36,214 bases of DNA from Snowella sp. (GTDB lineage: Bacteria; Cyanobacteriota; Cyanobacteriia; Cyanobacteriales; Microcystaceae): the NCBI GenBank assembly GCA_003249095.1, contig QBMS01000015.1:1-36214 (forward strand). The letters run 5' to 3'. Under the pieces are notes generated by a model, which searched no databases, was not told the DNA's origin, and saw only the letters and a list, made by a program, of their open reading frames with translations. Positions 3,515 to 22,713 of the stretch are shown piece after piece; position 1 is the first letter of the stretch, and every line of letters starts with the position of its first letter. The translations under genes and the position numbers were made by a program.

Positions 3515-4537
3515 ATGATTGTCAAGGAATTAGACTCCCTAGAATTAGGTGATAAATTTGAACAAGCAGGTTATTCTGCTGAATCTCAACTTGCTTTCTA
3601 TTTAAAACGAGAATTTAAGGATGATCCACAAATATTCGTTTTTAATCATTTACGCTTGGAAAAAGCGGGAGATGCTTGCCAGATCGATCACTTGGTATTA
3701 CACCCTTATGGAATCATTATTATTGAAAGCAAAAGCGTCACAACTCGTTTAGAAGTCAACGAACTTGGCGAATGGAAGCGTTGGTTTAATAATGGTTGGC
3801 AAGGAATTCCTTCACCAGTTTTACAAGCGCAACGACAAAGCAAATTTCTCAAAAATTATTTGGAAGACCATGTTGAAAAGCTACTCAATACTATGTTGTT
3901 TGGAAAACAAGCACATTTTATAAAAATGCCTATAGATCTATTTGTAGCAATTTCTGATTCTGGCATCATTAATCGTCCCAAAAATAGCAAACTAGATAGC
4001 GTAAGTAAAGCAGATCAAATTCCTGATAAGATTAAAGCGATCATCGCAGAATACCGTAAAAAAGACAGTCTGTTAAGTCTGACTCCTCCTTATGCGTTTG
4101 ACAAGAATGAAATACCAAAGATTTGTGAATTTTTCCTAACTCACCATCAACCCGCAAAAACAAAAATTGCTTCTCCCGAAAAATCTACTCCTGTTATTAC
4201 CGAAAAAATAGAATTAATTCCCCAAAAGAGCATTTCTGTCTCTCTAAACAAAATTCATAAACCTGAGTTTAAAAATAAGCCAGTCGTAAAAAAGATAAAT
4301 ATAAATTCACAAAATACTTGCTCACACTGCCAAAATCAAAATCTATCAATTTTATATGGTCATAGTTATTACTTCAAATGTCACAATTGCAATAAAAATA
4401 CAGCGATCAAAAATATTTGTTCCCAGTGTGGCAATCCAGAAAAAACGCGAAAGAGTGGCTTACAGTTTTTTACAGAATGTCAAAAATGTGAGACTTCAAG
4501 ATTATTGCATACGAACTCTTCTATAACTACGGATTAA
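3515..4537 (+). CDS. NERD nuclease-related domain protein with C-terminal zinc ribbons
   Basis: A 340-residue protein. Residues about 18-125 form a NERD domain: AGYSAESQLAFYL at the start, then QIDHLVLHPYGIIIIESKS, which supplies the D...ExK arrangement of the restriction-endonuclease-like fold. A basic, charged linker of about 80 residues follows (near 205-265). The C-terminal 75 residues contain four CxxC pairs (CSHC, CHNC, CSQC, CQKC), enough for two zinc ribbons of the topoisomerase type. NERD proteins are thought to act on DNA or RNA, but most are uncharacterised. The gene stands alone, is noticeably AT-rich and has no HIP1 site inside. It neighbours two toxin-antitoxin modules and a DUF790 gene, which fits a small accessory or defence stretch. 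Confidence 0.8.
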   Translation: MIVKELDSLELGDKFEQAGYSAESQLAFYLKREFKDDPQIFVFNHLRLEKAGDACQIDHLVLHPYGIIIIESKSVTTRLEVNELGEWKRWFNNGWQGIPSPVLQAQRQSKFLKNYLEDHVEKLLNTMLFGKQAHFIKMPIDLFVAISDSGIINRPKNSKLDSVSKADQIPDKIKAIIAEYRKKDSLLSLTPPYAFDKNEIPKICEFFLTHHQPAKTKIASPEKSTPVITEKIELIPQKSISVSLNKIHKPEFKNKPVVKKININSQNTCSHCQNQNLSILYGHSYYFKCHNCNKNTAIKNICSQCGNPEKTRKSGLQFFTECQKCETSRLLHTNSSITTD

Positions 4538-5352: not shown

Positions 5353-5391
5353 TTGACAAGACAATGCAACTACATTACCCTTAAAATAAGG
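5353..5391 (+). promoter_or_regulatory. Putative prlF-yhaV promoter and operator
   Basis: A perfect -35 TTGACA (5353-5358) lies 17 bases before TACCCT (5376-5381), a weak -10. The palindrome CCTTA-AAA-TAAGG covers 5379-5391 at the expected start of transcription. CCTTAAAA is repeated 36 bases upstream at 5343-5350. An autoregulatory antitoxin could bind here; this is inference. Confidence 0.45.
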
Positions 5392-5418
5392 TTGAACAAA
5401 ATAATTTTCAATATTCCC

Positions 5419-5751
5419 ATGACTTCGATCATAACCCTATGTTCAGAATCGACACTGACTGATCGCTATCAAACAACTGTGCCTGAATCTGTTCGCAAAG
5501 CCCTTGGTTTAAATAAACGGGATAAAATTTGCTACACCATCCAATCGGACGGTCGAGTTCTTATTTCTCGCGTTGATCAACGAGAAGAAGACCCCATTCT
5601 GAAGAAATTTTTAGACTTTCTAGAGCAAGATATGGAAAAAAATCCTCACCATTTACAGATGATTAGCTCTAGTTTAGTCAATCGTGTTCAGTCTTTAGTT
5701 GCAGAGACAAAAATAGATCTCAATGCCCCACTTTTGGACGAGGATGAATAG
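5419..5751 (+). CDS. prlF: PrlF/SohA-like antitoxin (AbrB fold)
   Basis: A 110-residue antitoxin. Residues about 8-52 form a swapped-hairpin AbrB DNA-binding domain (ESTLTDRYQTTVPESVRKAL, then VLISR). The C-terminal part resembles E. coli PrlF: DPILKKFLDFLEQDM, a central helix and an acidic end, LNAPLLDEDE. PrlF neutralises the ribonuclease YhaV and represses the operon. The frame is open further upstream from a TTG at 5353, but that TTG is the -35 box of the promoter, and MTSIITLCSESTLTDRYQ is the natural start. The toxin gene follows after two bases. Confidence 0.88.
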   Translation: MTSIITLCSESTLTDRYQTTVPESVRKALGLNKRDKICYTIQSDGRVLISRVDQREEDPILKKFLDFLEQDMEKNPHHLQMISSSLVNRVQSLVAETKIDLNAPLLDEDE

Positions 5752-5753
5752 AT

Positions 5754-6251
5754 TTGTCTGAAAATAAACGGCTCGTGATTAATGGTTGGCATATTTTCGT
5801 CCATCCTTTATTTCTTAATCAAGTTGAAGAACTCTTAGAAAAAGTCGAACATTTACGACAAAAATATCCCAAAGATTACCAAAGTAAAAACGCAACAAAA
5901 CGTTTAGCCGCGATCGCAAAACTAGCATTTCAAGATATTCCACAAGACCCAACTCGTAGCGAATATCGTCAAGGAAATACCCTTCGAGATGATTACAAAC
6001 ATTGGTTTAGAGCTAAGTTTTTTCAGCAGTACCGATTATTTTTTAGATATCATCAACAGAGTAAAATTATTATTTTTGCTTGGGTTAATGACGAAACCTC
6101 TAAACGAGCCTATGAAAGCAACACAGATGCCTATCGAGTTTTTAAGAAAATGCTTGAAAATGGGAATCCTCCAGATCATTGGGATAATTTATTAAAAGAG
6201 TCAAAAGGTGAAATTAGTCATTTAGAAAAAGTGATTAAAACAGAAAATTAA
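5754..6251 (+). CDS. yhaV: YhaV-like toxin (type II, ribonuclease)
   Basis: A 165-residue toxin matching YhaV: NGWHIFVHPLF at the start, then YQSKNATKRLAAIAKLAF, KHWFRAKFFQQYRLFFRYH, IIFAWVNDE and a C-terminal KTDAY-like NTDAYRVFKKMLENGNPPDHW. E. coli YhaV is a ribosome-dependent ribonuclease of the RelE superfamily. The start used is TTG at 5754, two bases after the prlF stop; no ATG lies early enough. A GTG at 5772 is the alternative and would remove six residues. The weak start may keep toxin synthesis below that of the antitoxin. Confidence 0.88.
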   Translation: MSENKRLVINGWHIFVHPLFLNQVEELLEKVEHLRQKYPKDYQSKNATKRLAAIAKLAFQDIPQDPTRSEYRQGNTLRDDYKHWFRAKFFQQYRLFFRYHQQSKIIIFAWVNDETSKRAYESNTDAYRVFKKMLENGNPPDHWDNLLKESKGEISHLEKVIKTEN

Positions 6252-19287: not shown

Positions 19288-22068
19288 TTAGGATTTTTTT
19301 CGCCGTTTATATTCTGAGCAATTAGAGTTCCCGTAATCATCAACTCTGCAATAACCACATTTTGGACAAATCAGGTAATGACATTCAGGACAAGTATTAC
19401 CTTTTTTAATGATTAAGGGAGAGTAACGACATTTTTCATCTTCTTTTATTTTTCCTCCACAGTATGCTAGAAGTTTTATATAAGAAGTTTCACCTTTCCG
19501 CTTACCTTCCAAAAGGCCTCGACCGCTAAACTTAAAGATATTAAAACCATTCAGATTGACTTCTTTTCTAGCATTCCACAACGTAGCTAAGGTTTTACAA
19601 AAATTCTGAATAATAGCTTTCCGAATAATACCTAATGGATCATAAATTTTTAATGGATGAGTATTGTTGCCTAATAAATTTATCATATTAGATGAATCAG
19701 TCTTGCCGTCTAATAAATTCATAATATTAGTAGGATCATAATTAGTATTTTCATTATATAGCATGATCAAAAAGTGTTTCAGTATTGACATATAAATATG
19801 AGATAATGTCAAACAACTATTATCCTGACGATACAGCAATTCAATCAATGTTATTTTCCATTGAGGTATCTGTTGTCGCCATGTTTCAGGAATAGGTTTA
19901 TTTGCAAAAATAAATAAGGGAATATATGCTTCAATTGATCCTTCATTAAGAATTTTAAAATCATCATAAGAAGGAATCTCACTATCTTGTAAAGTTTTTA
20001 ATTTGTCAGAAATGGAAATTTGATTTTGGTAAAACTGCTCGTCATAATCAAATAACCAAGGTGGTAAATAGCTCTCAGGCTCAAATCCTCTGGTCATATC
20101 TAACTCAATACCCTTATCACTAAAAATTCCAGCGAGACTTTGCAGTCTTTTATAACTTAATTCTCCTAAATAAATAGAAATAGGAGGATCAACATAAAAA
20201 TCTGGAGTATTACTACCATCCATGTATTTAAGTTGAAGATTGGGAGATAAGACAGCCGCGATAATAACATCTTCCCCTTGAATTTCTTTAAATTTGCGGA
20301 CGCACACGTCTGAGTAAACCTTGGATTTAAAAGCTTGACGAGTATTTTTTACATCAAGTAGCTTTTGGGATTTGTTTGAACTAACTCGAATATCTGCTTG
20401 TTTCCAAAGCTCACTTTTCTTCGTGACTTGATGAATAGCAATATCTTCTACGTTATTACCTAAATTTTCATAAAATTTCCGAACTAATTTTTCTGCCCCT
20501 CGCGCTGATAGCATTTTAGCTCGAACAGATTCACTGGCGTTGCTTCCTGCCCATAAACTCGCAAGAGTTTTATCATTTATATTAAATTGATATAAATCTC
20601 TATAATTCATGCTGATTCCATCTACACCAACATATCCAGAGTCTTTAAATTCATTGACTAGACTAAAAAATACAGAATATCTTGCTTCAATTATTTTTTT
20701 CTTAGAACTGATAGGAGCAAAATTCCACAAATAGTTATGATATTCAAGACCTATCTCTAAGTAAGTAATTTTTTTCCACAGAGTATCTCGATCCTCATTG
20801 GAGCAGTTACTATTACTAATAGTTTCAAACAATTCAGTCCAAGCCTTTTGGCGAAAAATGCGGAGATCTTCGACTTCGTTATGAAAATTGAGAATTTCTT
20901 GGATTAATCCTGCATATTGGTTAATATTACGTTCTTTTAGCAAATTTCTTAAATCTTCAGAGCATAAAAATAGTCCTTTTGAAAGAGACAGTAATCTTTC
21001 AATAAAACTATCCAATTGATCTAATGGAATTGACCGAATTTTATTACAGACAAGTGCTACGGAGTGTTGAATTTCAACTTTAGAAATATATAACCATAAA
21101 AAAGGCTCAAAAATTTTATAATCAGGGCTGTTTAAATATTCTAAAAACTCTGTCCATAGTATTTGACGAATAGATTCATCTTCATAGTCTAAATTTTTCT
21201 TTATAAAATCTACATATTCTTGAAAATTAAAGTTAAAAAGTACATCACGCAGTTCCCTAGATATAAAAAATAAATTTTCCGAAACTTTTTTCAATAGTTC
21301 TAAAGCTTCGTCGTTATTAGAAACAAATTTGATTTTTTCTAAAATAAAATGAATAGCTTCTGCTTCTGACAATGTTGAAACATAAGACTCGATAAACGGC
21401 TTTGAAAGATTAAAGTTAGAGCTATATACAAAATCCTTTATAGTCTTCTTATCAATAGTATTGGGATCAATCTTAACAACTTCAATAGCTGATTGTCTCC
21501 TATTATTTTTGATGGCAAAGGATACAATATCTCCATTGTTAATCCAACGATGATCTTCAACATACACCTGTGATTTATCCTCACATTCGATATAAGCTTT
21601 TTTATAAATTTCAAGTCTTAAAGACGAACGTTGGCGAACAAAAATACCATTTCTTTGGTGTAAGCGAACATTAACTGCACAGGGGCCTCTGTGATTATTT
21701 CCGATTTCAAACTCAACAACAATACCTTTTCCTTTTTCTCTGTCGCCTTCAAATAGTTCTTGTAGATGTTGAGGTACTTGATTTCGATCAACATATATTT
21801 TATTCTTGTCTATTTCTGTATAAAAAATAAACCCATAATTATTTTTTTGACCATCTTTATGTCCACCAAACCAAAGAATTTCTCCAATTGCCATAGATTT
21901 AGACTTATCGCCTTCTCTCTCACAATCGGAATTTTGTAAGACTTTGTTTTTATTAGATTCTTGCCATTCAGAAACCTTGTCAGTTGCAAATTGAGTGCAA
22001 TCTTCTAAAATACCTTCTTCTGCTAAAAAATCATCAAAAGACGAACCGATATAAGGATTATTAGTCAT
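19288..22068 (-). CDS. Chimeric 926-residue protein: antitoxin-like leader, cold-shock-like domain, PD-(D/E)XK-like core, zinc ribbon
   Basis: I do not recognise this gene as a whole. Residues 1-36 (NPYIGSSFDDFLAEEGI, then TDKVSEWQ) match the N-terminus of small XRE antitoxins that normally follow Gp49/HigB-like toxins, but no helix-turn-helix follows. From M59, MAIGEILWFGGHKDGQKNNY and RGPCAVNVRL resemble a cold-shock/OB nucleic-acid-binding domain (59-137). Residues about 210-510 are mostly helical. E526, D559 and D572-x-K574 (ADIRV; LLDVKNTR) fit a PD-(D/E)XK nuclease core. The C-terminus has a probable zinc ribbon: C893, C896, C901, C904 and C907. The ATG overlaps the toxin gene by 8 bases. 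The gene is very AT-rich and lies in the longest HIP1-free stretch of the window (about 3.4 kb), suggesting acquisition. Function unknown; a nucleic-acid-targeting effector is an inference. Confidence 0.7.
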   Translation of the reverse strand: MTNNPYIGSSFDDFLAEEGILEDCTQFATDKVSEWQESNKNKVLQNSDCEREGDKSKSMAIGEILWFGGHKDGQKNNYGFIFYTEIDKNKIYVDRNQVPQHLQELFEGDREKGKGIVVEFEIGNNHRGPCAVNVRLHQRNGIFVRQRSSLRLEIYKKAYIECEDKSQVYVEDHRWINNGDIVSFAIKNNRRQSAIEVVKIDPNTIDKKTIKDFVYSSNFNLSKPFIESYVSTLSEAEAIHFILEKIKFVSNNDEALELLKKVSENLFFISRELRDVLFNFNFQEYVDFIKKNLDYEDESIRQILWTEFLEYLNSPDYKIFEPFLWLYISKVEIQHSVALVCNKIRSIPLDQLDSFIERLLSLSKGLFLCSEDLRNLLKERNINQYAGLIQEILNFHNEVEDLRIFRQKAWTELFETISNSNCSNEDRDTLWKKITYLEIGLEYHNYLWNFAPISSKKKIIEARYSVFFSLVNEFKDSGYVGVDGISMNYRDLYQFNINDKTLASLWAGSNASESVRAKMLSARGAEKLVRKFYENLGNNVEDIAIHQVTKKSELWKQADIRVSSNKSQKLLDVKNTRQAFKSKVYSDVCVRKFKEIQGEDVIIAAVLSPNLQLKYMDGSNTPDFYVDPPISIYLGELSYKRLQSLAGIFSDKGIELDMTRGFEPESYLPPWLFDYDEQFYQNQISISDKLKTLQDSEIPSYDDFKILNEGSIEAYIPLFIFANKPIPETWRQQIPQWKITLIELLYRQDNSCLTLSHIYMSILKHFLIMLYNENTNYDPTNIMNLLDGKTDSSNMINLLGNNTHPLKIYDPLGIIRKAIIQNFCKTLATLWNARKEVNLNGFNIFKFSGRGLLEGKRKGETSYIKLLAYCGGKIKEDEKCRYSPLIIKKGNTCPECHYLICPKCGYCRVDDYGNSNCSEYKRRKKS

Positions 22069-22429
22069 TGATTTGCCTCACTAAAGATTGTCTGTTACGA
22101 GCGATAGTTAAATCTCGTTGGGGTGTTTTTTGCGTTTTCTTAATAATGCCGTGCAGTAACACCATCCGTTCATTATGAATACAAAAAAAGATTCTTGCTT
22201 CTCTGTTTGACGGCAAAGTTGTACGGACTTCATAAAGACCATTACGCAATGGACGACAAGTCGGCATTCCAACGGGCCAGCCATACTCTAACATTTTAAC
22301 AGCTTGTCCTATTTTTGTCTTATCAAGGTTATCTAGGCTTTTGAGCCAATCACGAACTGGTTCAATACCTTTTTTACTCCTGTAAAACTCAACGGGCAAG
22401 CGTTTCACATTATCCGATGAATCTGGCAT
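22061..22429 (-). CDS. Phage-derived Gp49-like / HigB-type toxin (RelE superfamily)
   Basis: A 122-residue protein of the Gp49-like (DUF891) group of RelE/HigB toxins, presumed ribosome-dependent ribonucleases. Family motifs are intact: LPVEFYRSKKGIEPVRDWLK, MLEYGWPVGMPTCRPLRNGLYEVR, REARIFFCIHNERMVLLHG and IIKKTQKTPQRDL. The start is the ATG at 22429 (MPDSSDN); a TTG one codon upstream is possible. No strong ribosome binding site is seen. In this family the antitoxin is a small XRE protein encoded directly downstream. Here the downstream gene overlaps by 8 bases (ATGACTAA) and keeps only the antitoxin's N-terminal leader before becoming a very different protein, so a conventional antitoxin is missing from the locus. 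Confidence 0.88.
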   Translation of the reverse strand: MPDSSDNVKRLPVEFYRSKKGIEPVRDWLKSLDNLDKTKIGQAVKMLEYGWPVGMPTCRPLRNGLYEVRTTLPSNREARIFFCIHNERMVLLHGIIKKTQKTPQRDLTIARNRQSLVRQIND

Positions 22430-22713
22430 CAAGTTGATTTTAATATTTTGGGCATCCTAGCAGAACGATGTCAAAATAACAAGATTGCATGGAAAATTCT
22501 CCCATATCTCCCGTCTTACCTCAATACGATCGCCTATGCGCTTAACCATCAGATGACATTGAGATCGCCGCAAGGAACTTGTCGCCCGCGATCGCATTTC
22601 CAATCAGCCTGAAAAGAGAAGAATTTGATTTAATGATAGGCTTATAAAGGGAAACTTGAGTCTAGACAAACTCAGTTATTTCCATCACAATTCAAAAACA
22701 AAAGGAAAAAACA

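Follow-up and report, generated by a model that had tools for sequence, protein, structure and literature searches.

What might a single polypeptide that joins a cold-shock domain (CSD) to a nuclease do in a cyanobacterium? This question is raised by one gene on contig QBMS01000015.1 of Snowella sp. (GenBank assembly GCA_003249095.1), in a window, namely the whole stretch of DNA that was analysed, of 36,214 nucleotides. The answer that we favour, with moderate confidence, is that this CSD-nuclease is a mobile defence effector which recognises exposed single-stranded nucleic acid, probably single-stranded DNA (ssDNA), and then cuts DNA. Its domain architecture is well supported, and the remark of an initial annotation of this DNA that no named family has such a layout holds for Pfam, NCBIfam and PADLOC, in which no family was found that spans the protein beyond its CSD.

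Relatives were recovered by whole-genome hidden Markov model searches and an A2 alignment scan, in a survey that covered Cyanobacteria well and other phyla through plasmid records only; neither viral contigs nor, when scanned with a single protein, genome contigs gave any relatives. In the open-access literature searched, neither the CSD-nuclease nor the CSD-DarT proteins discussed below were found described, an absence that constitutes weak evidence. Feature coordinates are those of the window, all on the minus strand, and residues are counted from the first ATG of the open reading frame (ORF) unless numbering from M59 is stated. L and G numbers are our handles for loci and genomes.

Nuclease domain and zinc module

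The nuclease domain occupies residues 488-676 (20041..20607). It was modelled separately because matches to the CSD filled the full-length fold search and hid the nuclease. The isolated model, built from 13 sequences (pLDDT 79.7, pTM 0.81), matched I-Ssp6803I with a Z of 8.3 (root-mean-square deviation, rmsd, 3.1 over 111 aligned residues), NhoI (7.8), Hjc (7.7) and the SPARDA nuclease (7.2), and the best 50 chains after realignment were nearly all PD-(D/E)XK enzymes, including PvuII, HinP1I and influenza PA. These Z values are moderate. Foldseek alone, run on the same model, gave nothing with E below 0.001, so that the nuclease assignment depends on how consistent the match list is, together with sequence conservation.

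It was found that the catalytic glutamate of helix A, E526 (20491..20493), the "PD" aspartate D559 (20392..20394), and D572 and K574 of the (D/E)xK motif D572-V573-K574 (20347..20355) are invariant in 23/23 homologues, three of which are proteobacterial plasmid proteins of 19-22% identity. In total 28 columns are invariant across these homologues, among them also D542, Q547, N575 and eight cysteines. The initial annotation had picked the four nuclease residues from the sequence alone and had expected a restriction-endonuclease fold at residues 500-650, and both expectations are borne out, the second in a predicted structure. By modelled fold and by motif, the C-terminal nuclease qualifies as a member of the PD-(D/E)XK superfamily.

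The protein ends in a putative zinc-binding module, C870-C917 (19318..19461), which is poorly modelled (pLDDT about 40). Its cysteines (870, 880, 893, 896, 901, 904, 907 and 917) are all kept in 23/23 homologues. The cysteine-rich end noted earlier is therefore real, but it holds eight invariant cysteines and not the five then counted.

Cold-shock domains and helical array

Residues 59-926 were modelled with AlphaFold2 from 13 sequences (mean pLDDT 79.5), and the resulting structure is both predicted and shallow. The model runs from a CSD barrel through a second OB/CSD-like domain, a HEAT-like array, the nuclease and a second helical region to the cysteine-rich tail. The first CSD (residues 59-138; 21655..21894) is matched by Pfam CSD at residues 75-135 with E=2.5e-5 and 24.5 bits, slightly below the 27-bit cut-off, and in the predicted structure it forms an OB barrel that superposes on cold-shock proteins such as CspE and on YB-1 with Z ~10 (10.1) and rmsd of 1.5-1.8 Å. 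The cold-shock-like pattern read earlier from M59, and the OB fold expected at residues 59-140, are thus both recovered.

A second CSD/OB domain (residues 138-202; 21463..21657) is indicated by modelled strands and by tandem CSD fold matches, namely RNase R and Unr, over residues 79-147 in M59 numbering (Z 7-8), and the domain is clearly a CSD in the DarT-bearing cousins. It is followed by HEAT-like helical repeats (residues 203-483; 20620..21462), assigned from the model and the fold search, with helices predicted at 149-418 in M59 numbering; the helical middle described in the initial annotation is accordingly present in the predicted structure. The copy number of these repeats differs among homologues, and they are expanded in G103.

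One front end on several effectors

The family-profile search of the order also gave proteins that match the N-terminal half only and whose C-termini differ. Pfam DarT was found in L091 (4.4e-43), L090 (5.5e-17), L093-L096 and L116, and in L091, L090, L093, L094, L096 and L116 Pfam places CSD and DarT in one ORF; in L095 Pfam detects DarT alone, the CSD being detected through the family profile. The window protein itself has no DarT match by Pfam. A further group (L088, L117, L123 and L092) carries cysteine-rich C-terminal segments instead of DarT. When only helical segments are compared, alignments join nuclease to DarT proteins (E=8.9e-13, probability 97.8), nuclease proteins to the cysteine-rich set (4e-8) and DarT proteins to the cysteine-rich set (7e-17), and in G261 the helical part alone was matched in the family-profile search (E=3.3e-12). 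Since it is the helical part that aligns across the sets, and not the CSD only, the predicted CSD-CSD-helical front end is one module paired with at least three effectors. L118 (4229-6028), in which a CSD stands with GIY-YIG (Pfam 3.2e-6; PADLOC UzuA), was left out of the membership, its helical module not being clear.

DarT is followed by a partner gene in these forms: a Macro-domain gene (E=5e-15) in L091, an ADP_ribosyl_GH gene (E=2.4e-31) in L090, and an ADP-ribosylglycohydrolase gene after all other DarT forms with a visible downstream gene. As far as our searches show, this CSD-DarT pairing with a macrodomain or glycohydrolase gene is an undescribed DarTG-like arrangement. CSD-DarT genes with a macrodomain or, oftener, an ADP-ribosylglycohydrolase gene were observed at L091, L120 (G261:C39), L121, L127, L125 and L116, usually near HicAB.

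Single strands are what CSDs bind, and the thymidine ADP-ribosyltransferase DarT works on ssDNA. In one CSD-nuclease homologue (L042:8402-11266), an SSB domain (Pfam 8.8e-20) has been added at the C-terminus. Another homologue is preceded by a retron-like reverse transcriptase (see below), a further lead towards ssDNA. Taken together, a CSD that binds single strands, a DarT that acts on ssDNA and an SSB domain gained once make ssDNA the most economical target to propose for the front end.

Proposed mechanism and its main rival

We infer from sequence and models that the protein would bind nucleic acid with a preference for ssDNA, cleave DNA and be activated by infection. In this scheme, the two CSD/OB domains and the HEAT-like array would constitute the recognition module for single-stranded nucleic acid, the likely trigger being ssDNA exposed in phage or plasmid replication. 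The PD-(D/E)XK domain would then cut DNA, either that of the invader or the host's own in an abortive response, while the eight-cysteine zinc module would steady the nuclease and may hold or orient the substrate. The DarT forms are accompanied by antidotes and the nuclease form is not, which suggests that the nuclease form is under tighter autoinhibition. More broadly, we lean, if only just, towards an undescribed set of cyanobacterial modular immune proteins that share one ssDNA-sensing tandem-CSD/HEAT-like front end and differ in their killers: PD-(D/E)XK with a zinc module, guarded DarT, or a cysteine-rich segment.

Several observations weigh against the favoured reading. RNA is bound by CSDs no less readily than ssDNA, and the window protein has a degenerate second CSD. 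The majority of nuclease copies are solitary amid housekeeping genes, outside defence islands, and the nuclease form is without a dedicated immunity gene, unlike the DarT forms. In a recent pair of Nostoc copies, dN/dS is just 0.45. No relative was found in the phage records of our collection, which speaks neither for nor against a counter-phage role.

The affinity of CSDs for RNA feeds the strongest rival, in which the CSDs would bind RNA such as phage transcripts and the nuclease would cut RNA, or DNA in an RNA-dependent manner, as proposed for CoCoNuT. The CSDs of CoCoNuTs are interpreted as RNA-targeting in PMC11090510, and the fold matches include influenza PA, which cuts RNA as an endonuclease. 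However, the top fold matches are DNA enzymes, and the pairing of this chassis with DarT and with SSB favours ssDNA, so that we regard an RNA-directed protein as unlikely, though worth keeping in mind.

If the ssDNA-directed reading is true, the known repertoire of bacterial immunity would gain a front end whose effector can be exchanged, and with it DarT toxins aimed by a cold-shock module, which to our knowledge, and in the literature searched, have not been described before. It also offers a way to ask whether exposed single-stranded DNA itself acts as an alarm signal.

Start site and the higBA remnant

The whole ORF (19288..22068) is intact, with 926 codons and zero internal stops, yet only part of it belongs to the CSD-nuclease. 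Every homologue, including those of S. salina, Crocosphaera, Nostoc, Tolypothrix and Okeania, begins at the position of M59 (21894), and ORF residues 1-36, MTNNPYIGSSFDDFLAEEGILEDCTQFATDKVSEWQ, match amino acids 1-36 of intact cyanobacterial HigA with E of 5e-10 to 5e-11. Because residues 1-36 are by similarity the HigA N-terminus, the native start is placed at M59, and the gene proper at 19288..21894. The interval given in the initial annotation indeed runs from M59, although its residue numbers were counted from the first ATG of the ORF; the HigA remnant, like the second CSD, three of the cysteines and the DarT-bearing cousins, was overlooked.

What remains of the gene for the HigA (XRE) antitoxin is its first 36 codons (21961..22068). 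Directly upstream, with an overlap of 8 nt with the ORF start, lies a gene for a HigB/Gp49-type toxin (22061..22432; Pfam Gp49 E=2.8e-19). In intact HigA elsewhere, the N-terminal segment continues into a helix-turn-helix (HTH) domain; here the likeness to HigA ends at about residue 36 and no XRE HTH follows. A clean insertion into higA was considered and ruled out, as a HigA C-terminus was sought downstream of the CSD-nuclease gene and was not found. With the HTH part missing here and also not found downstream, the element has evidently taken the place of the HTH part of higA, and now stands in-frame with the higA start. The gene consequently sits in the higBA operon, and may exploit the higBA promoter and translational coupling.

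Of its antitoxin, HigB is left with residues 1-36 alone, so that HigB may be inactive, the remnant may still neutralise it, or another antitoxin may act in trans. A further toxin-antitoxin pair, PrlF-YhaV, is found at 5353-6251 of the window (Pfam 6.9e-40 and 3.8e-64), with a gene for a NERD protein upstream (3515-4537).

Distribution, mobility and selection

The family profile was matched in 31/391 genomes of the order, proteins with the front end only included, and the nuclease form occurs sporadically. The window gene is AT-rich (31.2% GC against 41.6% for the window), with a GC content at third codon positions (GC3) of 0.22 against about 0.41-0.48 in most flanking genes. The initial annotation had read this composition, and the absence of HIP1 over 3.4 kb, as signs of a recent arrival. 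The AT-richness is genuine, but it is weakened as a sign of recency because family members are AT-rich everywhere measured (the genes have 27-33% GC in each host), and low GC common to the family does not date an arrival. The HIP1-free gap was rejected as such a sign: it measures 3368 bp, and other gaps of 3200 and 3168 bp in the same window make it unremarkable.

Horizontal movement of the gene is supported by another comparison. In two Nostoc strains that carry the gene at the same site, the gene has a synonymous divergence (dS) of 0.09, whereas a neighbouring gene has 0.57, which points to recent transfer or recombination. Several copies of the nuclease are truncated or interrupted by stops, while the G366/G324 pair is under purifying selection (dN/dS 0.25).

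In another rival the gene is mainly a selfish or decaying toxin-like cassette with no present defence role in this genome. Frequent decay elsewhere, slots in common with toxin-antitoxin modules and solitary placement would fit it; the intact ORF of the window, in which every catalytic and zinc residue is retained, and the purifying selection in G366/G324 do not, and we hold it to be improbable. Toxin-antitoxin genes were observed within about 1.2 kb of many nuclease copies (L038, L043, L044, L031, L039, L052 and the window).

Neighbourhoods of the nuclease copies

Of the nuclease copies, four sit between HmaA and HmaB in Hma defence loci: that of G209 with an intact Hma, that of a Synechocystis plasmid, where Hma surrounds a frameshifted nuclease, and the copies of S. 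salina and Tolypothrix, flanked by remnants of HmaA or of HmaA and HmaB. From such placements it could be argued that the protein is an accessory nuclease of Hma, coupled to the HmaA helicase and the HmaB methylase, with the solitary copies as orphans. However, 0/12 other close Hma loci examined carry the nuclease, their visible HmaA-HmaB intervals holding toxin-antitoxin modules, other small genes or nothing, and most nuclease copies are without a trace of Hma; the nuclease is thus cargo, and was rejected as a core component of Hma. Intact nuclease ORFs also persist where Hma has decayed, which argues that HmaB methylation is unnecessary for tolerance, and an identity of only 42% between the Synechocystis and G209 copies, against 59% for S. 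salina, suggests separate entries. No Hma sequence was found in the window, and at E<=1e-100 the genome gave no close HmaA either. An accessory role in Hma is, on balance, quite improbable. The HmaA-HmaB interval (L171-L182) was itself observed to be a recurring toxin-antitoxin slot in cyanobacterial Hma loci, occupied by HigBA, VapBC or HicB-like genes.

In G366, an operon reads from a retron-like reverse transcriptase (RT) through a protein of 244 aa bearing an RxxxxH motif to the CSD-nuclease, and pairs of RT and 244-aa-like genes were found in other genomes with different third genes. A retron-type effector, held by, or sensing the loss of, ssDNA reverse-transcribed by a neighbouring RT, could appeal to this operon, to the recurring pair and to the CSD proteins among known retron effectors (PADLOC CSD_V, NCBIfam Se72), but it is highly improbable, given that an RT accompanies the nuclease at G366 only, that in G324 the middle gene is present but the contig runs out, that the window gene has no RT as a neighbour and that a search of the RT loci gave no Rfam retron RNA. 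The RT (~370 aa), the small RxxxxH protein (HEPN-like?) and a varied third gene, either the CSD-nuclease or an AAA_33-WYL protein, were observed at L040:6632-10960, L147:3124-6956, L149:3816-7951 and L150:4064-6041, and the RT and RxxxxH pair is possibly an undescribed RT defence family.

Among other neighbours, a PDC-S19/DUF3644 gene adjoins one nuclease copy, and methyltransferases, Vsr and phosphorothioation genes stand alongside the plasmid relatives. Together with the four Hma placements, these neighbours supply a defence context that we count in favour of the proposed effector. The L042 nuclease adjoins a DUF3800 gene that resembles the type VII retron effector.

Comparison with known systems

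A listing of domains in other conflict systems includes the cold-shock domain (PMC7159879), and the CSD-nuclease can be set beside several known systems. Hma, a DUF499-centred system related to BREX, has housed the four copies described, some of them formerly, yet most Hma loci lack the nuclease and most nuclease copies lack Hma. With the CSD effectors of type V retrons (Se72), the CSD is held in common, as seen in weak matches to PADLOC CSD_V and NCBIfam Se72; those models, however, span ~62-64 residues and describe the CSD only, and the combination of RT and non-coding RNA in one operon that marks a retron was not found at the window locus.

Of the designs in print, CoCoNuT McrC proteins and TOTE/TALON come nearest. 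The McrC of CoCoNuT type I-A (CnuC) combines CSD, PD-(D/E)xK and zinc ribbon, and works with an McrB GTPase (PMC11090510). The window protein differs in its N-terminal tandem CSDs and HEAT-like repeats, and was found to be without an McrB-like GTPase, DUF2357 (no Pfam match) or a coiled coil; its operon consists of higB and the CSD-nuclease ORF, with Uma2 also adjacent, and neither HigB nor Uma2 is a GTPase. A likeness to TOTE/TALON (TPR-CSD, TBP and effector) lies in a CSD joined to helical repeats and in exchangeable effectors (PMC12458937). In TOTE, however, the components, TBP included, are separate, whereas the CSD-nuclease is a single polypeptide, and no TBP domain was found in the whole genome, while archaeal control genomes gave matches.

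Kinship with the DarT of DarTG lies in the front end. Cyanobacterial DarT proteins bear the CSD-CSD-helical N-terminus of the window protein, but the latter ends in PD-(D/E)XK and a zinc module, and neither a macrodomain nor a glycohydrolase gene partners it.
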